NCBI GenBank assembly: GCA_949152475.1
Contig: OX424555.1
Coordinates: 21,036,868-21,100,867 of the forward strand
DNA length: 64,000 nt
Source of the DNA: Terebella lapidaria
Taxonomy: Eukaryota; Annelida; Polychaeta; Terebellida; Terebellidae
Direction: 5' to 3'
Part shown: positions 3,201-59,559 of the stretch, piece after piece
Layout of the letters: each line of letters starts with the position of its first letter
Position numbering within the stretch: position 1 is the stretch's first letter
Translations under genes and position numbers: made by a program
The notes under the pieces: generated by a model
The model's input: only the letters and a program-made list of their open reading frames with translations
What the model was told of the DNA's origin: nothing
The model's database searches: none

Positions 3201-6200
3201 TGTGGTGTTGCAAGCCCGTGGGAGGAATATTTAGGAAGAGGCAGCTTAATCTCACCAATCATCAGACGTGAAGGTAACGGCCACGAAGTTGCTGGCGTCG
3301 TCTTGAAAGACGCTGTTACAGCGCAGAGCGAACGTCACGTGACCCTTGCCGTGTCCATGACGCCGGAAGTTGATGTTCCATATTTTACCGGTCTGATCGG
3401 AGGCGTACACGTGACGCCCCGACAGGTCTCGCCAGTTGTGCTGACGTAACCACTCCGGAAACTGACACCGGGGTCGATCCCAGCTGTGCACGTCTGCAAG
3501 AATGGAAATCATGGTCGTAAAGTCCTCTATTTACATGATTTAGAACCACGCGGGAATCGTACCCTCAGACCATTAATGTTGCGCCAATTTGCATTTTCTT
3601 GCATATGCAATCATTTCTCGAGTGAAAATTTACATTTTGTTGAAGGACTGTTTTACCTTAAGTGGGTTCCCTTTGGGTTTACTTTGCGAATTAGAACGAC
3701 CGTACTTCAGAAAAAAGCAGCTTCGCCTTCAGCATCAATTTGATATCTGGGTCTAACGCGGTGCGTACCTCTCGTGAAGACCATGATCACAGGTCCGTCT
3801 GTGGCAGAAGACAGCCCTTGGCAGCTCGCGTCCGCCGACATCGCCAGCTGGATATTAGCGGCAGGTGTCCCATCCGTCTCATATTTCTAGGACCCGAAAA
3901 GCAGACAGAATACTGATAATATGCTTGCATTTTATGTCATAGCTATAGAGCCCTGGTGAACTGGGATATATTTTGTGTGTTTTCTGCTTGCGATAATAGC
4001 TCGCGAGCCATTTGTCATCTTCATATGATTTTGCGCGGTTCTCTGTAGAAGGTCTATATATCATAATTTTGAGTAAGTCACGTATCTCAGCATTTCGAAA
4101 AGATTTTACTTGTTCGAGTATTACAAGTATTTCACAGCTGCAGTGAATTCGGTAGATAAAACCATGTTGACTTACAAAACATCTGTACATGTCTTCGTTC
4201 CTGGTGATGTCTGAGCCGGAGAATCCTCCGTAAAGGAATTTGTCCGAGCCATCCTTCCAAGTCGCCAGGCACTGGAAGTCCAGTTCTGCAAGGCAATACA
4301 TGTAAGATACACAGTAAATCGTGAAGAAAGGCAAACACAAATCACCATCTGGAATGAAATGGGACAAAGAGTCGCTGGAAATGTCAAAAGTCATACATAT
4401 AAAGGCCTACAATGTACATGTATTTCTGTCGATGGACGTGTATGAGATGAAGTGTATGAAAGATCCTAGGAATACGTACATATTTTTCAGTGGAATTGAA
4501 CTGCTTCGCCCTATATTGTTTGATGGGATCGGTGATTGAACGAAACTGGTCTTAATATTTGAATTCTTCTGTCAACTTATAAATTCATTGGCATCATTTC
4601 GAACGGTTGACTCTGCAAGTTATAGTGGTCCGTGTATAATCCCGGGTCACAACTGCTCTAACATTCAGCAATACCTAGCGCAATAACACTGACACCATAC
4701 GACTCTCTACCAACATAAATAAGACATACATATCCACATCTCCTAATTATAGCAGGGATCGGGTTTCGCTGGTAATGGCTCTGGTATGTGACCGGACAGT
4801 GGACACTCCCCCATCTATGTCAATATGGGCCCCAGAGGTCCTGTGGCATCTCTCTATTCAATCCGTCTGTAACGAGAATCTCGCGTTTACGGGTATCAAG
4901 TGTTCACCGGCCTTTTCCCCATTATGGATTGACTCTGCACTGACTCTGCGCATTGCCAATGACACCACGGGCACGTGTAGGTGAAAACCCCGACGATAAA
5001 CGTACACACATTATGATATATACTGGTATATTTGGCAATATAATTGAGACCTTCTACAAATGACCAAAGGGTTGTTGTTTTTAGATAAGTGCATGGAAGA
5101 CTGGTTATAAGTTTCCCAGACACATCAGCTGGCTTCTGCCCGACTGCCTCTTGGACTTGTTATCTCCGCTCTGGTTGTAAGGCCTCGTGTCTATCGGCGT
5201 CTCACGCCTCATCTGACACAGAACACCGCCGACATCCCTGCTCTGTCCGCGGTATTTGCCCCGCTTTTGCAGGATTTGCCAGCGAGAGGTCACTTTCTGA
5301 GGATTCCCATACCCTAAGCTGCGATAAACAAATGACGTTACGTCAGTCAACATAAGCGTCTCTACCCCCAAAAGACCTTGGGTTGGTAGGGGCATTGGAA
5401 GAAAGGATCCGTTCTGGCGTTAAATACGCATGGTATCTTAATGCCTAGTGTAGGGATGTTTGCTCTAAGAAGACTTATACACCAACATGTCTGTATGCAA
5501 GAAATTGATATAGAAATTTAACGTATGCTGCTTGCTCCTCTATTTTCAATAAGGATTAATTGAGACGGATGAAATGGTATGTTTCAGTGGACGAGTAGTA
5601 GGCCCCCTAGTATAGTACACGTTATTTGGGTCGATAATTCTATACATGTAGTCGCCCTAGCAACAATTATGATTTTAAAAAATTCCAGTGCACTTTCTAA
5701 ACCAGCTAGAATGCGAGTCATCATACATGAAGTGTTATGCATCTTAGAATAATTGGTACTAATGTTGAATGAACGTCTACAGAGCAGACCAGTAACAGCC
5801 AAGCAATGCCAGACAAAATACCTGCACATATCGACCTGAATATGAGCGCTATAAATTACTGAGCGGATGCTGTTCACGTGACTGCTATGATTTAGTGCTG
5901 CAACCATAATTTTCCCACCACTTTTGTGACTACGACCAATTTCGCTTTTCAGAACTCTAACGCGACATGACAAGACAAATGCTTTCCAACGAAACAGTCG
6001 TAGTTTTTTTCCCAGTCATTAAGCAACATTGTGAGGTAACATATGTTCTAGCGTTGCTGTGTCTAACTTTGTTTTAGTTCGGCCGTTCGGCGAGGGACAT
6101 TTTGTGCGTCATAACGAGAAGTGCTGCCATCAATCACAGAGGCGGACGGGCCTAAAATGAAGTTGGCATCTCCCGTATTACTCCCCTCGGAGATTGTTCC

Positions 6201-38882: not shown

Positions 38883-39300
38883 TGTGACGAATATCGTTCA
38901 CTGGCCGATATCAGGCCGGGGCCGAAATGTACCCGTTTCACTCACTATGTCGGATGATTTCTCATGTCGAATCTGTTACGATAATAATCCGAATACTTAA
39001 AATGTCTATCACAGATTCTCTTGGAGGCTTCTATTTTCACTATACAAACACGGTCATCTTCTTCAAAAATCTCTGGACAATTGCGCGGGGCCGAGGGACA
39101 TGTGTGTGGAATTTCCCGTCTTGAGCATACGGGGTTGTGTGATGGGCTGAGTAACTGCTGATGTCATGTATGTGCACGTGTCTGTAATTTTCCACGTGTT
39201 GAAGTATAGGTACTTGTGTCAGTGCAGTCAGTGTAATGCGCATGAGCTATATTGATCGGGGCCGCGTGACAGTATGTGGTTTTACGACGACTATCACTGG
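38883..39300 (-). mobile_element. Diverged solo or remnant LTR related to the 48540-59555 element
   Basis: Starts TGTGACGAATATCGTTCAC exactly like the LTRs at 48540 and 58829, then shares blocks such as CGGGGTTGTGTGAT-like, GGGGCCGAGGGAC, AATTTCCCG and GGGGCCGC in the same order, with a shorter middle. The left edge is sharp; the right edge is lost and estimated at about 39300. No internal region follows, so it is a solo LTR or remnant of a related older element. The orientation equals that of the intact element. Confidence 0.75.
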
Positions 39301-39371
39301 AAGCATGTTGCTGCTGTACATGCATATTAACTAGATACCGTGCGTATTTCAGTGAGGTTGGATGGGGCAGT

Positions 39372-41340
39372 TGTATTGTGTCAGAGTGTGATCTGTTTTG
39401 TGCTGCTGAAAACACGCGAGTGATTGATAACGCACTAAAAGCGCATTAATCAAGTGCTTTGAGAAGCCGAATTTTGTCTCACTAGATGAGTGACTATATT
39501 GCATTAGGAGTAGCACCACTAATATATAGCTACTTCTATCTCTTGACATTACTCAGATTAAAGAGGTGTTTGTCACAAATTGCATTCCATTGAATACATG
39601 CAATGAAATGGCATATCGTGAAGCATGTCACAGAATATCAATATGTTTGATGTAATGCACTGCCAGGGAGTAGGTCAAACACACATGCTAGGAAATAGCG
39701 ATACTTTTGCTCGTGAGTAGCACAGTAGGCAGATCACACAAAGCACTGATCAATCATTGTAAACTTCACAGTGTTAAGATGTGAGAGTGAATGTATATTA
39801 TATCCTCATGTTACCATGAATAATGACGATAACAGAAATCAAGCTGCAGAGCAAGCAAATACATAACTGTGTTATCTACTTGACTCGGTTCCATTGCCCG
39901 AGTAGGAGGAAAAGAAACATCACACGTTCATATTGATCATCCCGCGTCAGCCGATACTGTACAAAACTACATCGACATCCCCCATATGCAACTAATTCCA
40001 CGTTATACGTCTTCATTTGGAATTGATACTACAAGCATATAAATATATGTTTAGTGTCTACACATCTGAAGAGATCTATCGAGATTCTAGTGAAAACATA
40101 TTCCAATTGCATATATTTCATGTTAGACTGGGTTGCTGTGAATATGCATTATGTTTCTCCCAGGCACTTCTGATTGCAATATGTGAAGTATGTTGTGATT
40201 TTATATTATCAATTGGAGTTTGTGAAATACAAATATATGTATGTATATATAATTTAAGTCATGGTATGTATGCGTAGATGACAAAGCTCATATTGGCTCT
40301 GCTGATTCTGTAGAGGAGAGTATAGTATCCAATGTAGAGGTGGGAACCACGTATGTGACAGACAAACCCTGATAGGTCACAGGTCAGAGGCCATGGCCAG
40401 CGAGTCCAGCGATGTTCCAGCCTAAAGCCTACCATTGTTAGTTCTATCATTGTTAGTGTCCTCCAGGCTCAGATCGTGTGGTGATTGATGTATGAATCTT
40501 CTGTCCCAGTTACGCGACACTCTACATTGAGATCATTCAATTGAATTAGCATTTTCTGTACAATTCCATTGTTTTGGGCTCTTTGTTATGCAAAAGTAAT
40601 TAACTTAGTCAAAGCCAACATAATCAGATTATGTCGATATCCTTCAAATGGGTACAGGAGGTAACACATTTATTAACAAACTACAAACACTACAAACTTA
40701 TTGTGTGTGTATTGCCACAAACCATGGATGTGTTTCTGTAAAAGCTATTAAATCATGTCAAAACTCCAAACAAATGCCATAGCCATTTCGCAGGACATGA
40801 TCATTAAAAATATGACCATTTGTTATGGAATCTTACACATCATGAATACCTACGTCATCAGTAGACATATTGGATAATCGGTTTTTTGTAAAACATAAGT
40901 GTTAAATAAATGAATGTTCTATGTATCTGAATGCGTGTGGAATTTTGTTGACTACAACTATATTCCATAACACCTCAACTATACATCCAATATGTGGGTT
41001 GTTTGCCAATCGCCAGGCATGTACACCATGTGATATATTTTTGAACACGTTTTTTGACAATGAAGAAGGTCAAGAAAACTGAAACCATGTCCAAAATGGT
41101 ATTGCCTCTCAGTCATGCTCAGTCAATCGACACACACTAGTGTGAGCCAGAAATTACTTCTTGTAAATCAAAAATTATCTGTGGGTTGTTGAATTAATTC
41201 CTGAGAAATTATTGGTCTCTCATGTATTCATAATGCGACCCAAGTGTAATTCAAACGGCCAGATAACGAAGATTCTGACTCCGCAATGATTGGAGAAGGC
41301 CACTTGGTAGCAATGATAACAAGCATGATGATTGATAAAA
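39372..41340 (+). repeat. Segmental duplication, left copy
   Basis: Collinear direct repeat of 60388-63672. Anchors include GCTGAAAACAC (39404 / 60412), CATTAATCAAG, CACTGATCAATCATTG-type (39744 / 61161), TTAGTGTCTACAC (40051 / 61462), TTTGTGAAATAC (40218 / 62789), CAGGTCAGAGG (40380 / 62902), TGTTGAATTAAT and AAACGGCCAGATAA (41253 / 63593). Identity is roughly 70% by eye, so it is old. No protein-coding content is recognised in either copy. Confidence 0.75.
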
Positions 41341-47190: not shown

Positions 47191-48539
47191 TTATTAGGCT
47201 TTTACTCCACACAGCGCCCATTATGAAGGGTGGAGGTGGATGAATTTTTTGTTACAATGCCGAAAAACAAAATTATATACATATAAAAATGGCCGCCATA
47301 CACAGAACGGCAATTTAAGGGCGACAAAATTTTTATAATTCACAAGGGTTCATATGTCGCGTTCTATGCATAAATTGGGAAATAATTTATGGAACACACT
47401 TGGAGAAAATCGCCAGCAAAGTCCGAAAATCCACAAAAAAAATCAACAAAAATGTCTGTTTTGACTTTTCAAGGTCATTGAATACTTCGGGCCCTATGCA
47501 TACACTGAATTGAGATATTGCCATTAAGAAACCTTAATACTGATACATATTGTTATCATGTAAACAATACTGCACGTATATTCCACCTCGCCTTCGCTTC
47601 TTGAATATTAAGATGAGACGGCGAACATATGTTTCCAAGGTATAATCCATCATGTGACAATCTAGAATAGTGGGACTGAAGTGGGAGTTTGTACATCGGT
47701 AACTATTACGCCATACATCGATCCCTTGCCAAGACGCAGAGAGACGACAGACTCACCCATCTCACTGATACCGCCCTGTCACCTCCAAATGAGCATCATT
47801 CATCTTCTCCTGACGAGTCTGTCGACCGCTTCTAATGTCATATGATGTATAGTAAGAAGAACATTTGAAGGTAAAAAAAATATCGCAATTTGTTAGATCG
47901 TTCTGAGATATATTGTACATTCGAAGTTTAATTAATACATGGAATAACATACCCATACATAGAATGGGTATCAAATGGAATCCGACATATTGATTAAAAT
48001 CTCCCGACACAGAAAACAATAATACCAAATTTCAATCTACTGGAAGTCACCCAGCCCAACATGTGCGTTTGAAGACACGCCTCTGAACATGTTGGTCGAG
48101 TCGTTTTGATATTTCACTACTGGTAACAATGGGTGTCGATGAAACCAGCCGTCGTCCATAACACCTGCTACTCGGCAAGTCAGTGTAACTTACATTCGAC
48201 CATAAATACATCCGCCATAAAGAGCCATGTTGACAGTGAATTATCGCGGTGTTATGCGCGATACCTCGGCATTTTCAACAGTTCCTATTCTAACACTTTT
48301 CGGCACGCAGGACGTATAGAATGCATATTTCTGAAATGTTATCAGATTATTTTATAGAGAAAAAAACACCACTTGAACTGTGTTGGCAGTTATTACACCA
48401 AAATAATATAACATTGAACACGATTGACTCTATCTGTTTCTACAAATCCTAGGTATTGTTTTAAAACCATTGATTGTTGATGGCAATGAACATCATGTGA
48501 ATGAACAATGGAAACTAGTTTAATGCAACATAATATATC
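47191..48539. other. Intergenic DNA left of the LTR element, no supported gene
   Basis: AT-rich sequence between the LINE remnant and the LTR retrotransposon. No coding or RNA feature is apparent. Confidence 0.5.
48536..48539 (+). repeat. Target-site duplication TATC, left
   Basis: TATC directly precedes the left LTR (TGTGAC...) and recurs directly after the right LTR (...CTACA) at 59556-59559. Four to six bp is normal for Ty3-type integrases. Confidence 0.85.
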
Positions 48540-48626
48540 TGTGACGAATATCGTTCACGGCCGATATCAAGCCGGTTTAACTGGGTCGTCGTGTGATACA
48601 ATAAGCCGGCAGTTTCAATTTAACTG

Positions 48627-48632
48627 TTTATT
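48627..48632 (-). terminator. Polyadenylation signal AATAAA of the LTR
   Basis: CCACAATAAACAGTT on the sense strand, about 95 nt downstream of the TATA box, where R would end. The same site in the 5' LTR is 58916-58921. Confidence 0.6.
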
Positions 48633-48726
48633 GTGGTGATAAAGACTGATGATCAATCACGCACAATCAGGGTCGCACTCTCACCTACGTCGGGTGATAT
48701 CCCAGTCTATATTCCTATATTATAGT

Positions 48727-48734
48727 CCTTTATA
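48727..48734 (-). promoter_or_regulatory. TATA box of the LTR
   Basis: TATAAAGG on the sense strand. The working copy in the 5' LTR is at 59016-59023, which would place transcription start near 58990. Inferred from position and sequence only. Confidence 0.55.
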
Positions 48735-49266
48735 CAACTTGCACATATATCCGATAGATTATATATATTAATATCGACAGTCTCACAGGAACTTTTGTAT
48801 ACACGTCCTGCCACTGGGATTTACACTACACTTCTGCGCAGTGGACTGGGGCCGAGGGACCATGAGGCTGTGTAATTTCCCGCCAAGTGTAAGCGGTGTT
48901 GTGATAGGTTGAATGTGTGGTGCAATGCGCTGATGTCACCGGGAAAGTGGGTTTCCCCGGCTCGTGTCAATACTTGGAATGCCTGTATGTGTGCACGTGA
49001 TGTATGGAGTATGTGTGTCAAGTTCTATGTTTAGAAGTCAGTGCATGTGAAGGTCAAGGTCGAGTAAACGGGGCCGAGTGTACTGAGCTAGCGGGGCCGC
49101 AGGTGCGTGGTTTGACCTGTGTATGTAACCATGACTACATGGAGTTTATGCTTGTGATCGTATAGTGTGTACTTGTCCTGTATGTAAGTCATGTAGAATG
49201 AATGTTTGTTGTGGAAATGTGTAGTGCGCGGGAGGGACGGGAGTAACAGTCGCTAAAATTACTACA

Positions 49267-49285
49267 TAACACCCCTTCATTAATC
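49267..49285 (-). promoter_or_regulatory. Polypurine tract (plus-strand primer site)
   Basis: Sense strand AATGAAGGGGTGTTA lies directly against the TGTAGT start of the 3' LTR. The GAAGGGG core is purine-only, though short for a PPT. Confidence 0.6.
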
Positions 49286-49769
49286 CTACGCCCTCGGGAT
49301 TACCCTCCCCGGACCCTACCGTCGCCAAAACTAAACAATAAAAAGCTAAAAAGTCCTAAAGGTCAAACCCAAAAGCACTCACACACACACGCCGCGCGAA
49401 ATGAGAAAGCACTTCATACAAATAAAAATTCCTAACTGTCAAAATAAACGTCAGCAGTCAGTCTGTCAGCAGTCTCTACGATGATACATATACAAATACA
49501 TGCACAACAATGAATGGAATGTATGATATGGAATGATAAACAAAACTCCTCGACGTTTCAAAGCGAAACGGAACTATAACTTTAAGAGCCTAATGAACAG
49601 AAATAAAATGTAGATTAAATTTAACTAAATTACATGTATAAAAACAAAAAGCCATGACTAGGATATTAAATGTATATGTACAACTATTTACAATATATTT
49701 GTGCCGTGACCAGAATTGTTTGGTCACTCGGGGCCGCATCAAAGGGGCCGAACAGTTCAGGGACGAGTT

Positions 49770-52568
49770 TCACTTGTCCTCCCGTTCACGCCTGCTGGCG
49801 GGAGGAGGCGGGGCCGCTGGCGATGCCTGCCGCATCAGCTGTAGCTGTTCATCCGGGGGTAACCTTGGCAGAATGGACACAATTGTGGCCAAAAGCTCCC
49901 CCGGAATGGTCGGTGTGGACGGGGTCGTCGGGGCTGTTGCCTCCGGAGTAGTTGGGGTCGACGCTGCTTGGAGCCGAGCGTTTTCCTGTTGGAGGTTATC
50001 AACTCGATCCTCCAACTGAGTCACGCGAACTCGGAGCCGAAGATTTTCCTCGGACAGGGCGTCCGGGAACGTGGGCTGGTGGCGCTCATGTAGGGCGCCC
50101 ATCCCAAAGCCGACAGACAGGCCGTTGTACTCTGCCTGTCTGATGTGATGATCCAGGGCCGACAGATACTCCCGACGAATTAGTCGCAAGTACTGGTGCG
50201 CTAAATCGTCAGCGCGGGCGAGTGACAGGGTCGGAAGGTGCTCCTCCGGTTCTGACGGCAGGAGCAAGGGGTCGGCGTTGTGGGCGGCCTGTTCGAGACG
50301 AGCCGTCCAGAAGTCCTCGTGGAATCCGAGGTAGTTCGGGAGCCGCTGGGCGTCCTCATCCCGTAGAAAATCTGTGAGGTCGGGATTCTGGCCGGGTAGT
50401 GCCTGCAGGCCGGGAAGCGAGCGGGTCGCCAAACGTCTGCCGTGTTGCCGCAGGAACTGGAAATCAGCCGCGAACTCGCCGGATCCATGAAGCGGCAGAC
50501 GCTCGTCGAGGTCTCGGTGGAGTGACTCGAGCTGCTCTGGGTCGTCCACTTGGAGTCGGGGCCGGTCTCTATCGGTGCCGCGTGTCGGAACGGAGCGCAG
50601 AGGCTCCACTTCCTCCGTGAGGTACGGTGGGAGCGGGACGGGTTCCACCATCCGTCGTGAAGGCTCCGGTGAAGATTCCGGGGTCGAAAACGGTGTCGGG
50701 GTCGCACGTACAGGAGATCCGGGTGCAATCTCCCTGAGTGGAGGTGGCCGATCCTCAACTGGGCTCTTCGGCTCGGGAGTCTCCTTGCCGGTTGATGACG
50801 ATACCGGTGTGGTATTCAGGGGTCGACTTGGGAGTGGCGGATACTCCTCAGGTGGAGGGACCAATCCCTCACGGACTCGGTAGTCCGTGACGTTAGAGGC
50901 CGTGGGTCGTTCCACAACCATCCGCCGGGGTATGTTATCCGACGGCCGAGCTCTAGACGGGGTCGAGGATGTCACTGTGGTGACCGGTCGAGTTGTCGCT
51001 GGCGACACCACTGTCGCGAACGAAGCCGTCGTGACGACTGCCGAGGCCGAAACACCGGCGGTCGTTGTCGGGACCTCCTCCGCCGTGCTCACTGATGTCG
51101 TCTGGTAGTTTATGGGCCGAACGAAGAAGATCGTACTGGGTCGTCGAATTCGAACCCGCGTATTCATGGTCTCGATGTCACTGACCATGCGGGTAAGCCG
51201 AATCTCGTCTGCCGGGGTCGAAGCACGATTGTACTCCAGTCGACGGAGTACCTGTTGCACTTCCGGGGCCGAGTTGGGCGGATACTGCTCAAAGAGCTCT
51301 GGCGCCATGTGCCAGATGCCGAACGTCAGGACGGTGTTGACATCCCTCCTGAAGATCGGGATGTTGGCCGGAACTCTTGGGGGTCGATAATTCGGGTTCG
51401 GCTGCATGTCGACTCTGCAGCGTAGCGCGAACCTGACGAGCATGGGGCCGGATGCCGATAGTCGTCCTTCCTGGTAGAAGGGGAACGACGTCACGTGTTG
51501 CGGGGTCGCTTGAGACAGATGCCGGAACATCTCCTCCTGGGCCAATGTCCGGAAGCCGTCGCGGGCCGGACACACGAAGTAGCGCAGGAACGGAAAATGA
51601 TACGCTAGCACGTGCGCATCAAGACTCTGGGCCGTCCGAAAAGGTCCGCGTCGTGGCACGGAGGACCACTGTCGTTCTCCTGCTCCCTCCTCTTCGCCGA
51701 TGCAGAAGGGGCACTCGAATCGACCGTCTCCACGCTGTAGCGGGGCCAATGTGAGGAGGTTTCCCTCCGACAGGGTCGACTGCTCATCGAAGTTATGGAT
51801 GTGGCCGTATCCAGCGCTCCGATTTCGCTTACTGAGTGGAACCTTGTTCCAGTCTATGGGCCGAGTTCCGTAGGGTGTCACGGGAGGTGGCACCAATTCC
51901 ATTAATTCCGCCACTTGCCGACGGAAAGTCGAGGTCGGGGCCGTAATAGCAGATCCGCCGCTGGAGCGTGACGAACTGCTGGAGGTCGATCGGGCTCCCG
52001 CTCCATGCTTCTTCTTGAAAGAAGTATAAGTTCTCTTGTTTGGAGAACGGGAGGCCGCAGGTCGTGCTACCGCTGAACCGGAAGCGGGTGAAGTCGGGGC
52101 CGGAGCGATCGGGGCGATCACCTGATTTGCTGGGTCGGGTTGGCGGCTCGCGGTGGCGACTCGTTGAGCTTCTTGGGCCGCTTGTCGTGCCTCAATCGCA
52201 CGCTGGACGATACTTCCGCCCTCCTCGAGTCGGCGGAAGCGTTCGGGGTCGATATTGAAGATATCGTCCGGAGTCGGGCTCGGTGTATGGCGCTCTCCTC
52301 GTTGCGCCAGCTTGCTCCGGGCCGTTTTGGGTCGCGCTCCCTTTTCCGATCCACTTGCCGTGTCACTGAGCGTGACTGGATCGCGCTGTTCAGGCTGCGA
52401 GTCGGGGCCGGACGAACCTTCGTTGTCGGGGACGACTATAGGATGATCCGATTCATCCCCGGTGTCGATCACTTGGACGGTGACGTTATCGCCGTCCAAC
52501 TTAACTGTGCGGGGCCGATTATCACCTGGGTCGCCATTTTCCCGGTCGTCTCCGGGTTTGTCAGCCAT
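49770..52568 (-). CDS. ORF3 of the LTR element, 932-aa protein of unknown function
   Basis: Starts at a clean ATG (MADKPGDD). I do not recognise the family. Residues 1-220 are acidic then Ser/Pro/basic and look disordered, with a basic patch K-R-T-Y-T-S-F-K-K-K (178-187). A Cys/His cluster follows: C286-x2-C289 ... H319-x4-H324, then C333 and H350/H358, preceded by F-E, so a C2H2-like zinc-binding fold is likely. Residues 490-660 are Thr/Pro-rich. Residues 838-870 form leucine-spaced heptads typical of a coiled coil (L-R-L-R-V-R-V-T-Q-L-E-D-R-V). A Pro-rich tail ends the protein. It sits where env-like or accessory genes sit in other LTR elements, but there is no signal peptide or membrane segment, so it is not an envelope protein. 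A role in RNA or DNA binding is inference. The frame is intact. Confidence 0.85.
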   Translation of the reverse strand: MADKPGDDRENGDPGDNRPRTVKLDGDNVTVQVIDTGDESDHPIVVPDNEGSSGPDSQPEQRDPVTLSDTASGSEKGARPKTARSKLAQRGERHTPSPTPDDIFNIDPERFRRLEEGGSIVQRAIEARQAAQEAQRVATASRQPDPANQVIAPIAPAPTSPASGSAVARPAASRSPNKRTYTSFKKKHGAGARSTSSSSSRSSGGSAITAPTSTFRRQVAELMELVPPPVTPYGTRPIDWNKVPLSKRNRSAGYGHIHNFDEQSTLSEGNLLTLAPLQRGDGRFECPFCIGEEEGAGERQWSSVPRRGPFRTAQSLDAHVLAYHFPFLRYFVCPARDGFRTLAQEEMFRHLSQATPQHVTSFPFYQEGRLSASGPMLVRFALRCRVDMQPNPNYRPPRVPANIPIFRRDVNTVLTFGIWHMAPELFEQYPPNSAPEVQQVLRRLEYNRASTPADEIRLTRMVSDIETMNTRVRIRRPSTIFFVRPINYQTTSVSTAEEVPTTTAGVSASAVVTTASFATVVSPATTRPVTTVTSSTPSRARPSDNIPRRMVVERPTASNVTDYRVREGLVPPPEEYPPLPSRPLNTTPVSSSTGKETPEPKSPVEDRPPPLREIAPGSPVRATPTPFSTPESSPEPSRRMVEPVPLPPYLTEEVEPLRSVPTRGTDRDRPRLQVDDPEQLESLHRDLDERLPLHGSGEFAADFQFLRQHGRRLATRSLPGLQALPGQNPDLTDFLRDEDAQRLPNYLGFHEDFWTARLEQAAHNADPLLLPSEPEEHLPTLSLARADDLAHQYLRLIRREYLSALDHHIRQAEYNGLSVGFGMGALHERHQPTFPDALSEENLRLRVRVTQLEDRVDNLQQENARLQAASTPTTPEATAPTTPSTPTIPGELLATIVSILPRLPPDEQLQLMRQASPAAPPPPASRREREDK

Positions 52569-54019
52569 GCTGACGGGCCGAAATCAAGCCGAAGTACTTC
52601 CCGAGTACTGACTAGGCTGGTTGTAACAAAGTCTGGATTTCTTCAAAACCAGCCTAGTTCAAATGCCGATAATACAAGCCGAATTAACTCCAAAGTCTTG
52701 TGACCAGGATTTCAATGATATCACAGTCTATAGGCCGATAAATATTGTTCGATTAGCACAGTTTCTATAACAATAGTCTGTATCTCAATAGCCGAAACTT
52801 CTGACAATAGTCCTTCTCCTCCAAAGTCTCAGGCACAAGTGACCTGATTGCCGCTAATCTTCAATGCCGTACACAAAGATGCTGACAGCATCTCGATTCT
52901 TAGAACTGGGCCGGGGGGCGCTCTCTATATGTATAGAAAACGTCTTTACGCTATGTATCATTGTTCCAAGCGTACACACAGCAAGGCGGGGCCGTCGTCA
53001 AGGAAACGCGGGGCGATCCTTCTCTGACCTCTTGGGTCAGTCCATTACGACAGTAGGGGTGTCCTCACACTGTCCAGATTTCCGTATGTCCAGCTGCCGT
53101 CCCCTGGATAACTCGTGCCGAATCATTGTCTATTTATACTAGTCGACTGTTCAGATTACTGGGCTCTTTTTGCCCGACGACTCACTATTGTAATTATTAG
53201 GGGCGACTTCATGTAGGTGCTGTAAACAGCTAAAATGTTTATTAGCGCTCGTGCGTGCCTTGTGAACTCATCAGTCCATCATTCCTTCTCCCACAAGTTA
53301 GCGCACAATAAACTACGGGGTCGAGTTGCTGTTTCACAGACGACACACAGTTATTAAAGGCTGAGATATGAATATCAATCGCTCACAGGGGCGGACATCG
53401 TTCCATTCATTTTCAGCCAGTTCACAGGACGACGGGGCCGCAAATATGGTAGGGGTCGAAATTGCAATGATCTGGGTCGGTCACACCGCGGCGCTTTGAA
53501 TATTTTTTTGGGTGATGAATTTGATGACAGGCCGCATCTTGGCATGATAGCTATGTAGTGACTGGTTCACGTACCACTGGGCCGTTCCTCCGAATATTAC
53601 ATGGAGTGAGTAGAGGCTCTGTCGACGCATACTCCAGAACGAATCACACTATCACCTCTTCGACAACTAAGTGGCCTTACTCACGGTGTGACTGGTTATT
53701 ATCCTCTTCGGCTGACACATGGATTGAAGCTTTACATGATAATCTTAGTCATTGCGTAACATACGCCTTGATCAATGGTACATGTTATACGGGGTCGAAA
53801 CACATATCATCATGCAACCAATTTTCCACCAGCATCATAATTATAATATCATATCTAGTGTGTATATATCGAGTTTGCCTCACTGACATCTTGTACATGT
53901 TAAATGCATATATTGTTATTGTAATATAATATATTATTATTGGGAAAGACATGATATCATAGTCCATTAGACATGCATAATTCATCATCAATGGTATCAA
54001 TCAGATAACAAGGCCGGGG
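52569..54019 (-). other. 1.45 kb internal spacer between integrase and ORF3
   Basis: No protein is recognisable here, and I found no remnant of RT, RNase H or protease. It is AT-richer than the flanking ORFs but still carries nine GGG(T/C)CG motifs and, at 52570-52870, repeated GCCGA cores (about 52576, 52588, 52671, 52679, 52733, 52791). It also contains the stem-loop at 52611-52658. It may be the untranslated leader of an ORF3 transcript. Confidence 0.6.
52611..52658 (-). promoter_or_regulatory. Stem-loop just upstream of ORF3 start
   Basis: ACTAGGCTGGTT (52611-52622) and AACCAGCCTAGT (52647-52658) are perfect 12-nt inverted repeats with a 24-nt loop. The structure ends 43 nt before the ORF3 ATG. 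It could influence transcription, splicing or translation of ORF3; the function is not shown. Confidence 0.6.
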
Positions 54020-54622
54020 TTATCTGTAGCGGGCCGGTCTGCGTGCGTGGCGTCTGGGTCGGTTTGGTCGTGCAGGCGGGGGCGTAGCCTCGCTTGTCTC
54101 AGGGTCGGAAGATACCACAGGCTTTTGCCTGCGTGTCTTGCGTGCCGGTTTTGGAGTGTCGGAACTTGATCTGTGTGATCTTTTCCGTTGCCGATGTCGA
54201 CTTGAGCCGGATGAAGTCGGAGATCGCGATTGACGATCCTGGGTCGTGGGCGAATCAGACTCAGCTGTTTGGTCTGAATCGGTATGCCGATCTTGGACTG
54301 TTACCTCCCAAGGGTAATAGAACTCCTTGAGAAGTCCCATGGGGTCGGGTGACTGTTCTGGGTCGGACTTGCTTGACGACGACGTGGGTCGTACAGGGTC
54401 GGAGTAGATGTGGGCCGCTTGGTTGTCACCTTCGTATGGCTTGAGCACATCCAGATGAACAACACGAGTGTTCCGAGGGTTGGAAACCAGGGCGATTCGG
54501 TAATCAACCTCGGTTACACGGTCGATGATCCTCCAGGGACCAGTCCAGGGCCGCGCGAACTTATTATTCTGCGTGAGTGGCAGATAATAATACCGGACCA
54601 GTTCGCCTGGTTGAAACTGGGG
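54020..54622 (-). CDS. Integrase C-terminal extension with GPY/F module (after in-frame TGA)
   Basis: This stretch is in the same frame as the integrase ORF, directly after its TGA (54623-54625), and stays open to 54020. Its start reads F-Q-P-G-E-L-V then W-T-G-P-W-R-I-I-D-R-V and R-V-V-H-L-D-V-L-K-P-Y, the GPY/F chromatin-targeting module of Ty3/gypsy integrases. A Ser/Arg/Pro-rich basic tail follows (R-R-H-A-R-R-P-A-R-Y-R). A downstream ATG at 54448 opens a 142-codon frame but lies after the module, so the natural reading is that one stop interrupts the integrase. The stop may be a recent mutation (a CpG-type change is possible) or could be read through. Confidence 0.8.
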   Translation of the reverse strand, partial: PQFQPGELVRYYYLPLTQNNKFARPWTGPWRIIDRVTEVDYRIALVSNPRNTRVVHLDVLKPYEGDNQAAHIYSDPVRPTSSSSKSDPEQSPDPMGLLKEFYYPWEVTVQDRHTDSDQTAESDSPTTQDRQSRSPTSSGSSRHRQRKRSHRSSSDTPKPARKTRRQKPVVSSDPETSEATPPPARPNRPRRHARRPARYR

Positions 54623-56116
54623 TCATGGTTTCGCGTGGGCGTCATAACCCAACTTTTGCCGAATTGCCGCTTTCTCGAGATGGTCTTGGGCGAAACCGTG
54701 GGCCGTTCTGATGGCTTGCCGCAAATACTCCACATACTCCGGACCACACGGAGGTAGAGGCTCAGGGTCGTAGGTCGGAAACATGAGGTCGACTGGCAAG
54801 TTACACTCATGTCCATACACCATCAGATGCGGGGTGCATCCCGTGGACGAGTGTACTGAGGTTCGATAGGCCATTAACACATATGGCAAGTGCAAGTCCC
54901 AATCGTTTGCACGATCGCTGACGAACGCACTCAGCATGTTGAGCAATGTCCTGTTGAATCGCTCAACCTGGCCGTCGCTCTGGGGTCGGTATGGGGTCGT
55001 ACGAATCTTCTTAGCGCCCAGTAGACGCACAACATGCCGGAACAGGGACGACTCGAACTCAGTACCTTGATCGCTATGGACCGCTTTGGGGACACCGTGG
55101 TAGACTATCCACCGATTCACCAGGGTGTCGGCAACATTTTTGGCCGTATGTCGCCGTAGCGGAAAAGCGTCAGTGTACTTCGTAAAGTAGTCCGACACGA
55201 CTAGTACATACCGATAGCCTCTTCCCGTGACCTTGTGGGTGTCGAGGATGTCCATCGCTATTCTGTCGAACGGCGCTCCTGTCGGTAGCTGTGTCAGGGG
55301 CGATCTTTTTGGGGCCGGTTTACCCTTGCGGGTCACACATTGCGGGCAGCGGGCACACCAGCGGGCGACGTCCAGCGCCAAGCCGGGCCAGTAGAATCGG
55401 CGCCTGACTCTCTCGATGGTACGCTGTATGCCGAGATGTCCGACAATCTTGAGGTCGTGTAGTTGGTGCAGAACTTGTGTCCTGAGTGCTACGGGGAGCA
55501 CGGTCTGTACCACACGTCGTCCAGCGGGGTCGGGTCTTGTGTTTCGTACCAGTACTCTGTCTTGTAGCACCAGGAGGTTCCAGCGAGAAACAAGTGTCTT
55601 TACCTCCTCCCCGTGGCGTGCAACTTCTCTCGAGTCTGGTTTTGTGCCAGCTAGTACCCATTGTCGCACTCTCCCGACACTGGGGTCGGCTTGCTGTGCC
55701 GCGACAATGTCCTGGGTCGTATAGTCCGATAACCACTTTTGTCCATCAAGTGTGGTGTCCAAAGCACGGACTCGAACAACTTGGCGTGCCGAAATAAGGC
55801 GGGGCAACCGCAAGACCGGAGACATTATTGAATCACTGTCTAGGAGGTCTGCCCTTGTCTTGGCCGGAACAACGGTTATCCGACGAACTAGAGGTTTCCC
55901 GGAACTTGTTTCTGGGTCGGTTGGGGGCAACACCCCTTCAGGACGACGGTTTCCATGTGGTGGCCGTTGCGGTCGCGGTGCGGACACCCCTTCAGGAAAA
56001 GAGGCCGGTTTCGGGGTCGGAGCTTGACATTTTGTACACACCCCTTCAAGGAGCTGAGGTGTGGGCTGGGCCGGCTGCGGGGTCGTTATTGGTGTCGTTA
56101 CCGGTACAGTAGTCAT
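54623..56116 (-). CDS. int: Truncated Pol: tether plus integrase (497 aa), no RT
   Basis: Residues 1-130 are a Pro-rich linker like the region that normally follows RNase H. Then come an H2C2 zinc-binding domain (H220, H227, C257, C260) and the catalytic core with D289, D349 and E385, spacing D-59-D-35-E, all intact. Motifs H-S-D-Q-G-T-E-F and Y-R-P-Q-S-D-G-Q-V-E-R-F-N are typical of Ty3/gypsy integrases. The protein would cut and join element cDNA into the host chromosome. The frame is -1 relative to Gag and overlaps the Gag end by about 43 nt (56188-56230). A stop at 54623 removes the GPY/F module. The lack of protease, RT and RNase H upstream is the outstanding oddity. Confidence 0.93.
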   Translation of the reverse strand: MTTVPVTTPITTPQPAQPTPQLLEGVCTKCQAPTPKPASFPEGVSAPRPQRPPHGNRRPEGVLPPTDPETSSGKPLVRRITVVPAKTRADLLDSDSIMSPVLRLPRLISARQVVRVRALDTTLDGQKWLSDYTTQDIVAAQQADPSVGRVRQWVLAGTKPDSREVARHGEEVKTLVSRWNLLVLQDRVLVRNTRPDPAGRRVVQTVLPVALRTQVLHQLHDLKIVGHLGIQRTIERVRRRFYWPGLALDVARWCARCPQCVTRKGKPAPKRSPLTQLPTGAPFDRIAMDILDTHKVTGRGYRYVLVVSDYFTKYTDAFPLRRHTAKNVADTLVNRWIVYHGVPKAVHSDQGTEFESSLFRHVVRLLGAKKIRTTPYRPQSDGQVERFNRTLLNMLSAFVSDRANDWDLHLPYVLMAYRTSVHSSTGCTPHLMVYGHECNLPVDLMFPTYDPEPLPPCGPEYVEYLRQAIRTAHGFAQDHLEKAAIRQKLGYDAHAKP

Positions 56117-56187
56117 GACAACCGCAGATGTGGAGCGGGGAACGTTGTCCTGTTGTCTGGAAGGTCCTTGCTCCTCAGCACCTTCCC

Positions 56188-56230
56188 CTACTGGTTTGAC
56201 GACGGGGTCGGAGGTGTTGGTGGGGCCGGT
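56188..56230 (-). promoter_or_regulatory. Gag/integrase overlap (putative -1 frameshift window)
   Basis: In the integrase frame the last upstream stop is at 56231-56233, and the Gag stop is at 56188-56190, so any -1 slip must occur in these 43 nt. I see no canonical X-XXY-YYZ heptamer in the right phase. Separate initiation at the integrase ATG (56116) is an alternative. Confidence 0.45.
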
Positions 56231-58764
56231 TTAGTTTGGTTACCGGTTTGGTTAGGTACTGACAACACTTGAGCTGTCCTTCTGTCAGTACCGGGACCAT
56301 TGGGCCGAAATGCTAGCGGTTTCATGCCGTTACGTACTAGCACATCCTTAAGCCGAAAGCATCGCATCCAGCGATGGCCGGGCTTCTTGCAAAAGAAGCA
56401 CACCATGGGTCGTCCGGGTTGCGGGGGTCGATCACCTTTCATCGGGGCCGTTGTTCGTAGGACAGAGAAGATAGCCGTTTCCTCGCACAGTCCATTCTCG
56501 TCACTAAGGACGCACTGGAAGGCTTCGGCCACCCACTCGCGTGAGCTGGTTGGCACTGAGTGTTCGTCGCAACCTTGTAGGCCGGTAGTGTCACTGTCCG
56601 CGGGGTCGTAGTAGGCCGCAATTTGCTCTGGGGTTAGTGTTTCCCCCTGAGTGACTTGTCCCATGGCACAGGACAGTTCCTCATTGACAGGGTCGTCTTC
56701 CGCGTATCCGCTTGCGGAAATGTCAGCACGTCGTGTGCCTCGATGTCGATCTCTGGCTGTCCTCTGTTGACGACTCTCTACCTTGAGAACGGCCGTAAGT
56801 GCCTCACTGTAACTGTTAAAAGTGAGGGCACACAGTTTATCGGCGATGGGGTCGGGTTGGCCGTTCACGAATTGCGCAATCACAGTTCGTTGCCGCGACG
56901 TTGGCGTAACGTCGTCGAACACTTGCTCCGCCAGGGCCTGGAGTCGCTCCATGTAGTGTTCCGCGTCCTCTTTTCGTTCCCGCTTGAGGAACGGGAAATC
57001 GTCCCGTTTGGACTGTCGACGGGGCTCGGGTTCCCAGCCCTCTAGGAGTTGGCGACGGAACTCTCCCCAGGGAGTTGCGACCGGGATATTGAGAGCTAGC
57101 GCTTCAGCGCGGCCGCGTAGCGTGCTCCGGAAGGTCGTCGTCTTGTTGAGGTCGGAGTAAGTAAAGGCCGCAGTGAATTGTTCGAAACTCCGAACGTATT
57201 GAGTGAGATTGCCCTCCTTAAAGGTCGCACGCCATTGAGCCATTTTAGCCGTAGCCAACGTTTGGGGCTCAGACGTGAGTCTTTGTGGCGTGGGCGTGTC
57301 AACACTCACCGCAACTGGTGTAGTCGCTGTAGTGACCGTCGGAGTCGGAACAGCCGAAGTCGCCGGAGCCGTCGTATCTGGGCCGATCGGGGTCGCGTTA
57401 GCGGGGGCGGTCGGTGCTGTCGTCGCGGAGACGGCGAGCGATGCGGCGGGTGGTGCCGTCGTGTGGCTGGGGTCGTGTGGTGCTTGTGCAGCGGGGGCCG
57501 GTTGACTGTATGGAGGCGTCACCCATGGTATCCCGACTGAGGGTGGGAATACAGCCGGTGGTGGATATCGGTATACCGATCCATCCGGGCATACACCATG
57601 GTACACTAATCCGGGTTGTGCACCATGATAGCCGGTGTCAGCGATCACGCTGGGAACGCCACCATATCCAGGCGGTGGGTTCGCGTAGCCGACATGCGGT
57701 GAATAGTATCCGACAGCTACTCCATTTGGAACACCGCTTGTTGCGCCAGGGTATCCGACTGGCGGTACACCATATCCGTTGGTGTTTCCGACTGATTGTG
57801 AGATCGGAGGTCCGATCATTTGCACAACACTTTCTGCCGGAGCAGACACAACTTGATCTTGCGACGGATCGAAGCGCGGTTGTTCTCCGGTAGTCGGCGA
57901 TGGTCGGTGCGTGGTCGGCGCGGGAGCGCGTGTGTCGGAAGTCGGCGTGTCGGGGTCGCAGGGTCGGCGACTTGATGTCGAGGGTGCTTGTCGGGGTCGC
58001 GCTTGTCGCATGGTGGCGCGAGGTTCCGCCATTGTGTCGCTGGGTCGTTGTTGTCGTAGCGGCGTCGCGATCCGGGTAGCGGTCGTCATCAGGATGTCTT
58101 CGGATGTCGCTCCCGTCTGGCTGGGTCGTGTGTACTCTACCACCGTAGGCTCGGTCGGTATGCGTGAGTACATTTCTGGCGCGGGGCCGTGTTGTCTCGG
58201 CGTCATGGACGGCGCCAGGGGTCGATTGGCCGAATAAGCGTTCGGCGGGGTCGATTCCGGAACATTGTCAGACTGACAAACCCACTGTCGTATCCGAGAG
58301 TTACTTGGTGGGTGCGTAACCATTGACGTGTCTATGGTTACCGGCCGAACGTCTACTGCTAATTGTTCTGGGTCGATATCACAATCTACGCTCGCTCTTT
58401 GACGTGAGCGCGTATAGTTTCTGTCGGCAAAGTCACTTTTCTGGGTCGCTCTAGCGGGCGTGGCCGAGTACGCTCTAGCGTGCGCACGCAGAATGTCACT
58501 TACTGTATGTGACGGGTCGAGCGGGTCTTCGTCTAGGAACTCCTGCACCAGGTCGGCAGGCGGCGAAAACGATCTCAGGGACGAATGGTCGCCAATGGAG
58601 TCGAAAAGGCCGGACGGTTGTTGCTCCTGCGACAGTGGAACTGTATCGCTCATGGCAACTGAGCGAGGGCCGGAAGGTCGGAAGGCCGGATTCGGATTGA
58701 TCGTCACTTCATCATCCGTAGGGTCGAGTGGCTCACCGCGGGAGGCTCCCGGGGCCAATGCCAT
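56188..58764 (-). CDS. gag: Gag polyprotein with CCHC zinc knuckle (858 aa)
   Basis: The first ATG is at 58764, only 65 bases after the 5' LTR. Residues 1-500 are long, disordered and Pro/Ser/Thr-rich, including a Gly/Tyr/Pro-rich, prion-like stretch at about 330-420 (repeats of G-Y, V-G-Y, P-P-G-Y-G-G). Residues about 505-670 form a retrotransposon capsid domain (M-A-Q-W-R-A-T-F, L-R-G-R-A-E-A-L, W-G-E-F-R-R-Q-L-L, Q-F-V-N-G-Q-P-D-P). A zinc knuckle C-x2-C-x4-H-x4-C (C-F-F-C-K-K-P-G-H-R-W-M-R-C, about 789-802) is the nucleocapsid motif that binds genomic RNA. The N-terminal half is far longer than usual for Ty3/gypsy Gag. It ends at TAG 56188-56190; the integrase frame would need a -1 shift, or separate expression. 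Confidence 0.92.
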   Translation of the reverse strand: MALAPGASRGEPLDPTDDEVTINPNPAFRPSGPRSVAMSDTVPLSQEQQPSGLFDSIGDHSSLRSFSPPADLVQEFLDEDPLDPSHTVSDILRAHARAYSATPARATQKSDFADRNYTRSRQRASVDCDIDPEQLAVDVRPVTIDTSMVTHPPSNSRIRQWVCQSDNVPESTPPNAYSANRPLAPSMTPRQHGPAPEMYSRIPTEPTVVEYTRPSQTGATSEDILMTTATRIATPLRQQRPSDTMAEPRATMRQARPRQAPSTSSRRPCDPDTPTSDTRAPAPTTHRPSPTTGEQPRFDPSQDQVVSAPAESVVQMIGPPISQSVGNTNGYGVPPVGYPGATSGVPNGVAVGYYSPHVGYANPPPGYGGVPSVIADTGYHGAQPGLVYHGVCPDGSVYRYPPPAVFPPSVGIPWVTPPYSQPAPAAQAPHDPSHTTAPPAASLAVSATTAPTAPANATPIGPDTTAPATSAVPTPTVTTATTPVAVSVDTPTPQRLTSEPQTLATAKMAQWRATFKEGNLTQYVRSFEQFTAAFTYSDLNKTTTFRSTLRGRAEALALNIPVATPWGEFRRQLLEGWEPEPRRQSKRDDFPFLKRERKEDAEHYMERLQALAEQVFDDVTPTSRQRTVIAQFVNGQPDPIADKLCALTFNSYSEALTAVLKVESRQQRTARDRHRGTRRADISASGYAEDDPVNEELSCAMGQVTQGETLTPEQIAAYYDPADSDTTGLQGCDEHSVPTSSREWVAEAFQCVLSDENGLCEETAIFSVLRTTAPMKGDRPPQPGRPMVCFFCKKPGHRWMRCFRLKDVLVRNGMKPLAFRPNGPGTDRRTAQVLSVPNQTGNQTKPAPPTPPTPSSNQ

Positions 58765-58810
58765 CAATGCCGGTCAGGTCTGGGTCGATAATCCGAGACT
58801 AGCTCAGATC

Positions 58811-58828
58811 CTGGTCGAACGGCGCCAA
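58811..58828 (-). promoter_or_regulatory. Primer binding site
   Basis: Sense strand TGGCGCCGTTCGACCAGG starts at the first base after the 5' LTR. TGG plus GCGCC fits the CCA 3' end of a host tRNA. I could not identify the tRNA. Confidence 0.7.
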
Positions 58829-59555
58829 TGTGACGAATATCGTTCACGGCCGATATCAAGCCGGTTTAACTGGGTCGTCGTGTGATACAATAAGCCGGCA
58901 GTTTCAATTTAACTGTTTATTGTGGTGATAAAGACTGATGATCAATCACGCACAATCAGGGTCGCACTCTCACCTACGTCGGGTGATATCCCAGTCTATA
59001 TTCCTATATTATAGTCCTTTATACAACTTGCACATATATCCGATAGATTATATATATTAATATCGACAGTCTCACAGGAACTTTTGTATACACGTCCTGC
59101 CACTGGGATTTACACTACACTTCTGCGCAGTGGACTGGGGCCGAGGGACCATGAGGCTGTGTAATTTCCCGCCAAGTGTAAGCGGTGTTGTGATAGGTTG
59201 AATGTGTGGTGCAATGCGCTGATGTCACCGGGAAAGTGGGTTTCCCCGGCTCGTGTCAATACTTGGAATGCCTGTATGTGTGCACGTGATGTATGGAGTA
59301 TGTGTGTCAAGTTCTATGTTTAGAAGTCAGTGCATGTGAAGGTCAAGGTCGAGTAAACGGGGCCGAGTGTACTGAGCTAGCGGGGCCGCAGGTGCGTGGT
59401 TTGACCTGTGTATGTAACCATGACTACATGGAGTTTATGCTTGTGATCGTATAGTGTGTACTTGTCCTGTATGTAAGTCATGTAGAATGAATGTTTGTTG
59501 TGGAAATGTGTAGTGCGCGGGAGGGACGGGAGTAACAGTCGCTAAAATTACTACA
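58829..59555 (-). repeat. 5' LTR (727 bp)
   Basis: Twin of 48540-49266, with no difference found on reading through both. On the sense strand it carries the promoter (TATAAAGG at 59016-59023), R and U5, and ends CGTCACA against the PBS. Confidence 0.95.
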
Positions 59556-59559
59556 TATC
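59556..59559 (+). repeat. Target-site duplication TATC, right
   Basis: Matches 48536-48539. The empty site would read ATAATATATC-GTTTATAATT. Confidence 0.85.

Follow-up and report, generated by a model that had tools for sequence, protein, structure and literature searches.

What purpose could a six-letter word serve that is written some hundred times into one strand of a mobile element? The question is raised by a Ty3-type long terminal repeat (LTR) retrotransposon of the polychaete Terebella lapidaria, which occupies positions 48540 to 59555 of a stretch of 64,000 nucleotides analysed here (the window; assembly GCA_949152475.1, contig OX424555.1, positions 21,036,868 to 21,100,867 of the forward strand). 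The plus strand of the element contains 105 copies of GGGYCG (64 GGGTCG and 41 GGGCCG) and not a single CGRCCC. The minus strand is the sense strand of the element, so that CGRCCC recurs in the sense RNA at about every 104 nt. An earlier note on this DNA, made by eye, had reported about 100 copies on one strand with few or none of the reverse; the count is stronger than the note supposed. The word is a constrained, directional and distributed signal of one Ty3-type LTR retrotransposon family.

Five words lie in each LTR, 26 in the Gag-like open reading frame (ORF), 22 between 54020 and 56187, nine in the spacer, 35 in a third ORF (ORF3), two in the 3′ stretch and one in a short 5′ stretch. The note had the LTRs, spacer and Gag right, and was slightly low for ORF3 (33) and for 54020 to 56187 (about 21). 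Eighty-three of the 105 words fall inside ORF pieces, with all codon phases represented, and the LTRs, spacer and 3′ stretch carry them too, which bears out the remark that the word follows neither phase nor coding. The left flank (48,539 bases) holds 16 GGGYCG and 10 CGRCCC, three of the 16 within a related LTR at 38883; the "about four" seen by eye outside that LTR was an undercount. The right flank (4,445 bases) has none of either, and the host DNA of the window (52.4 kb) has 23 words, both strands taken together, and shows no excess.

Shuffling removes composition and codon usage as causes, and the note's claim that this is not a codon effect holds. In 300 dinucleotide shuffles of the element the word occurred 13.0 times on average (maximum 24), and the reverse word, absent from the element, was expected 5.1 times. 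Shuffles preserving both codons and protein in the four ORF pieces of the window gave a mean of 20.2 and a maximum of 36 (n=1000) against 83 observed; with a protease-reverse transcriptase piece from another copy (L034) added as a fifth coding piece, codon-preserving shuffles gave 26.0 (maximum 40, n=500) against 102. Thus neither kind of shuffle, both of which the note had set as a check, reproduced the count. Outside the ORFs, observed and expected numbers are 5 and 0.3 for the LTR, 9 and 0.47 for the spacer, and 2 and 0.07 for the 3′ stretch. The enrichment is about fourfold over codon-preserving shuffles in coding DNA and about nineteenfold over composition in the spacer. Tandem Repeats Finder detected eight short rows of two to three copies and no motif array, which rules out tandem repetition as the source of the single orientation. 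A search for a protein "shadow" of the word in relatives (DP, GP and RP dipeptides) was uninformative, because the family's own proteins show little or no excess of these.

CGACCC and CGGCCC are the two most over-represented hexamers of the sense strand. Around the 105 words most of the additional information resides in G at +7 (68 words) and C or A at +6 (86 words), while A or C is slightly favoured at -4; the extended form is about CGRCCC-H-G. The preference for G at +7 extends to non-coding parts (12 of 16 words in one LTR, the spacer and the 3′ stretch). The weaker forms CGRCCT and CGGCCA, and CGGC generally, are also in excess on the sense strand. Outside the main word, CGGC occurs 97 times on that strand against 40 expected, and GCCG 35 times against 41; the surplus CGGC is often TCGGC in AT-rich surroundings (52569 to 54019 and elsewhere), and could be this signal in a weaker form. 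Regular spacing was rejected: the distances between words (mean 104) fit random placement (Kolmogorov-Smirnov P = 0.46; coefficient of variation 1.0).

The core complement is missing as well. GGGYC does not occur in the sense strand of the five coding pieces, against 15.3 in shuffled sequence (minimum 7, n=500), and over the whole element of the window it occurs once against 15.5 expected. In the host DNA of the window it is not depleted (62 versus 47.9 expected).

Other copies were sought in the same genome (761.6 Mb, 438 contigs); they also bear the word. For the study of constraint we compared 30 copies of the spacer, ORF3 and 3′ LTR, 19 of the LTR and Gag, and 17 of the reverse transcriptase (RT) piece. 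A variant was called shared, that is, one that has spread, when present in at least two copies, and private when present in one. At the five fixed letters of 104 motifs (519 sites) there were 18 private and two shared variants, where 20.6 shared were expected; elsewhere (10,972 sites) there were 500 private and 436 shared (Fisher P = 0.0007; Poisson P = 3e-7; as the copies are related, P values for constraint are guides). Both shared changes turn CGACCC into CGACTC, a form that occurs somewhat above expectation. The R position (four shared) and the flanks are as variable as usual, with the exception of position -1 (one shared). Constraint is clear for the ORF3 motifs, with no shared and 11 private variants at fixed letters. 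Losses beyond this count are a shared indel at one motif (12 of 30 copies) and a shared change of R to T (14 of 30). The most inclusive count, which takes any site with the word in any copy, gives seven shared variants in 559 sites against 88 in 1,970 for 29 permuted words handled in the same way (P = 9e-5). The word thus appears to be preserved by selection, and this suggests a protein that reads it and thereby recognises the RNA or DNA of the element itself.

The note had also asked whether diverged copies lose the word at the neutral rate. Such loss is not seen among the close copies; for diverged copies the comparison covers LTR pieces, in which motifs are kept. The diverged LTR piece in the window has three words, and two more from the genome, picked as diverged from 78 listed matches before their letters were viewed, have three and two. 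Together these pieces (1,580 bases) carry eight words in the strand of the element and none in reverse, so that the strand specificity claimed for the element extends to them. The sequence GGGCCGAGGGA, surrounding one motif, is identical in all four LTRs; the remaining motifs survive in only some of them. These comparisons indicate that the word is old. Two small stretches between LTR-like matches (L054 and L057) had no words on either strand; they bear no convincing likeness to parts of the element and are therefore uninformative on the interiors of diverged families. L057 is internally repeated and non-coding, and was fetched between two of four equal-score LTR-like matches that stand 4 to 5.5 kb apart at G000:C13:31017401-31032698; the LTR pieces there apparently sit inside a tandem array.

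The layout of the element is given in Table 1. In the sense direction the order is LTR, primer-binding-site-like stretch, Gag-like ORF, integrase ORF, integrase C-terminal piece, spacer, ORF3, 3′ stretch and LTR. The LTRs form a TG...CA pair within a target-site duplication, and as they are 100% identical and flanked by TATC on both sides, the insertion is recent. The stretch adjoining the 5′ LTR presumably resembles a tRNA-type primer-binding site. The Gag-like ORF was assigned to no Pfam family in a Pfam scan. The integrase has the H2C2 and rve parts expected of Ty3/Gypsy elements and 730 relatives, at most 77-78% identical over part of the query. Its frame is broken in this copy by a stop at 54623 and resumes beyond it.

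Table 1. Features of the retrotransposon and of a related LTR in the window (words, GGGYCG on the plus strand).
Feature	Position	Strand	Words	Remarks
Diverged related LTR (part)	38883..39420	-	3	Same orientation as element; words on same strand, 0 reverse
TATC, left copy of 4-bp target-site duplication	48536..48539			By eye
Whole element, field of words	48540..59555	Words +; sense strand -	105	Counted
3′ LTR in sense, 727 bp	48540..49266	-	5	100% identical to 5′ LTR
3′ untranslated stretch, about 0.5 kb	49267..49769	-	2	
ORF3, 932 aa	49770..52568	-	35	Orphan
AT-richer spacer separating pol and ORF3, about 1.45 kb	52569..54019	-	9	
Integrase C-terminal piece	54020..54622	-	10	PF22938; same frame, past the stop codon
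pol remnant and integrase ORF	54623..56187	-	12	H2C2 zinc site, rve core (Pfam); ends in stop
Gag-like ORF, 859 aa	56188..58767	-	26	CCHC knuckle (by eye)
Primer-binding-site-like stretch	58815..58828	-		Adjoins 5′ LTR; by eye
5′ LTR in sense, 727 bp	58829..59555	-	5	100% identical to 3′ LTR
TATC, right copy of 4-bp target-site duplication	59556..59559			By eye

The copy in the window lacks protease, RT and RNase H. Upstream of other ORF3 copies 20 stretches were retrieved; 17 of them have an extra 2.4 kb, and the sole extra piece scanned, L034, encodes protease, RVT_1 and RT_RNaseH (Pfam); with the integrase as in the window this gives the Ty3/Gypsy order protease-RT-RNase H-integrase. The missing part bears the word too, with 19 copies and no reverse in the RT piece (2.7 kb). 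Two other copies, L048 and L053, run continuously across the deletion junction of the window copy (about 55918), and L039 does not match there. Among 100 places listed, pairs of marker words counted by eye stood 2,994 apart in six cases (the window included) and 5,356-5,360 apart in 15. The window copy is thus a member of an amplified non-autonomous deletion derivative with an internal deletion of about 2.4 kb and a common junction, presumably amplified in trans.

ORF3 is under purifying selection. Its frame is free of internal stops in 47 of 49 copies (the best 49 of 3,710 candidates), and its synonymous and non-synonymous variants number 107 and 12 when shared and 80 and 42 when private (P = 5e-6). 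The private ratio also indicates that private variants are partly old, so the contrast used above to measure constraint on the word is conservative. No relatives of ORF3 were found in protein searches with different parts of it, nor in a search of the PDB. Visual inspection of ORF3 shows a Cys/His cluster near residues 284-360 (CPFC ... HxxxxH, followed by CP ... H). Sub-threshold leucine-zipper-like Pfam matches lie near residues 840-873, and there is a C-terminal coiled-coil-like helix. Single-sequence structural models of two pieces had a mean predicted local distance difference test score of 29 and 40, unusable except for the C-terminal helix.

How might such a word act? The strict strand rule, which holds in spacers as it does in genes, the lack of the complement and a layout without phase suggest a single-stranded target, hence the sense RNA: to a single-stranded reader the strand would matter everywhere, and a complement would be harmful. 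The reader would be encoded by the element, with ORF3 as the favoured candidate (selected, orphan, with a Cys/His cluster and a coiled coil) and the Gag nucleocapsid as the next. About ten weak sites per kb could let such a protein coat the unspliced genomic RNA, and coating may in turn select that RNA over host RNA for nuclear export or packaging. The word is retained in derivatives without RT, which have been copied repeatedly, as is expected of a cis tag served in trans. We therefore propose, with a probability of about 0.42, that CGRCCC serves the family as a directional and distributed recognition word, which an element-encoded protein, most likely ORF3 and next the Gag nucleocapsid, reads on the sense RNA. 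This RNA proposal is the best fit to the data and is unproven. The interpretation in the earlier note is partly supported, in that the word is not a codon effect, is strand-specific and is constrained; RNA as the target, Gag or ORF3 as the reader and a role in packaging are candidates only.

A wider version can be put forward tentatively, and is on balance doubtful: a family-wide identity code over the whole length, with about ten sense hexamers per kb and the complement erased, in which ORF3 would coat the genomic RNA and sort it from host RNA. It may further be imagined, with the same reserve, that the word was written into the genes largely by synonymous choice, and that word and reader are family-specific and co-evolving.

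Several observations weigh against the RNA proposal. Pfam calls no zinc finger in ORF3. Support from predicted RNA structure for single-stranded display is at best marginal: permuted words had a predicted accessibility of 0.074 and the word itself one of 0.092 (P = 0.012), a value not above that of 16 flank-shuffled controls (0.084 +/- 0.0095). In the coding pieces GGGRC is low as well (7 versus 16.0), and complements that would pair through G-U are not reduced (GGGYTG, 2 versus 2.4), so part of the lack of GGGYC is a general effect on runs of G. Neither Gag (one shared, five private variants; P = 0.11) nor the RT piece (one shared, two private; P = 0.85) shows significant constraint when taken alone. 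An integrase relative, L001 (41% identity), has 10 and 12 words on its two strands; the absence of bias there means that the word is not general to such elements. Finally, the DNA motifs of VANC21 likewise stand in one orientation at high density, in the accessible text of PMC5735166. Relatives occurred at three loci in contigs of prokaryote genomes, none with a motif bias, and were not found in viral contigs. L001 (JAADFT010000005.1) and L002 (JACERO010000093.1) are contigs deposited under bacterial or archaeal metagenome-assembled genomes that encode a Ty3-type integrase with 41-43% identity, and look like eukaryotic contamination.

The case of VANC leads to the rival that survives best, in which GGGYCG is a target in double-stranded DNA: ORF3, or some other protein, would bind it along the inserted element and act against silencing. 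The VANC proteins are sequence-specific anti-silencing factors of VANDAL transposons in Arabidopsis, and, as far as the accessible parts of the papers go (PMC5735166, PMC10398659), they share with our element a short degenerate motif that is dense, in one orientation (here 105 versus 0) and confined to the family. A transposon-encoded accessory protein with a Cys/His cluster and an element-specific motif degenerate at one letter would fit the same scheme, as would the CpG in the word: across the 208 sites of motif CpGs no variant was shared, as opposed to 46 across 1,673 sites elsewhere (P = 0.004). The VANC motifs, however, lie in tandem repeats of non-coding regions according to those same parts, whereas here, in an LTR retrotransposon, they lie mostly in ORFs and without tandem repeats, so that the single orientation is not a by-product of duplication. 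The reverse word is absent here, and there is no plain reason for a DNA site to erase its reverse. We regard a DNA-level tag as unlikely, though it deserves to be kept in view.

Lower still we rank a host RNA-binding protein that recognises CGRCCC and that the element would use to export or stabilise its long unspliced RNA or to keep it from being spliced. The same strand rule and additive layout would follow, and the extended end CCNG (68 of the 105 words have G at +7) presumably resembles sites of splicing factors. If host transcripts compete for the reader, there is less reason to expect a tag peculiar to the element, and the host DNA of the window, in which exons were not told apart, shows no excess.

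It is improbable that GGGYCG acts on the other strand, ending or destroying antisense transcripts and so sparing the element double-stranded RNA. The word would then have to be absent from the sense RNA, and this reading would account for its surplus on one strand as well as for the missing GGGYC on the other; the LTRs and the spacer have no special pattern, however, and we know of no antisense-terminating signal for GGGYCG. That the word arose neutrally, through base composition, codon usage, mutation bias or the expansion of repeats, is hardly credible. One may cite for it the positive GC skew of the plus strand over most of the element and the excess of the related words CGGC and CGRCCT; both kinds of shuffle, the lack of tandem arrays and a constraint centred on the fixed letters already largely contradict it.

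Known systems offer partial parallels to the RNA proposal. In RNA viruses, dispersed packaging signals take the form of stem-loops to which coat protein binds. They resemble the word in being many copies of a short signal along a genome RNA (accessible part of PMC6281560), and differ in that its structural display is marginal here. A review of Ty1 and Ty3 allows, in its accessible parts, that scattered sites may contribute to packaging; the helper tests it describes placed the needed sequences near the RNA ends and found the interior dispensable, unlike the present word, which spans the entire element (PMC4974528). For a third protein the nearest likeness is CERV of the LTR retrotransposon Cer1 (PMC10309623): export of the genomic RNA requires it, and it surrounds fibrils that probably consist of that RNA. 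Its resemblance to ORF3 is one of layout alone, CERV too being an accessory protein that is Cys-rich over one part and perhaps has a leucine zipper; the export role is shown for CERV, and the accessible text mentions no dispersed motif. In a literature search, mostly without subscription papers, we recognised no report of such a word, and none for CGACCC combined with a retrotransposon motif.

A dense, one-strand, phase-free and constrained word and an orphan accessory protein of the same element make a concrete pair for testing. If ORF3 is the reader, the family would provide a natural RNA- or DNA-recognition system with about 100 mapped sites, and would demonstrate the capacity of a mobile element to write a recognition code over its own coding sequence.

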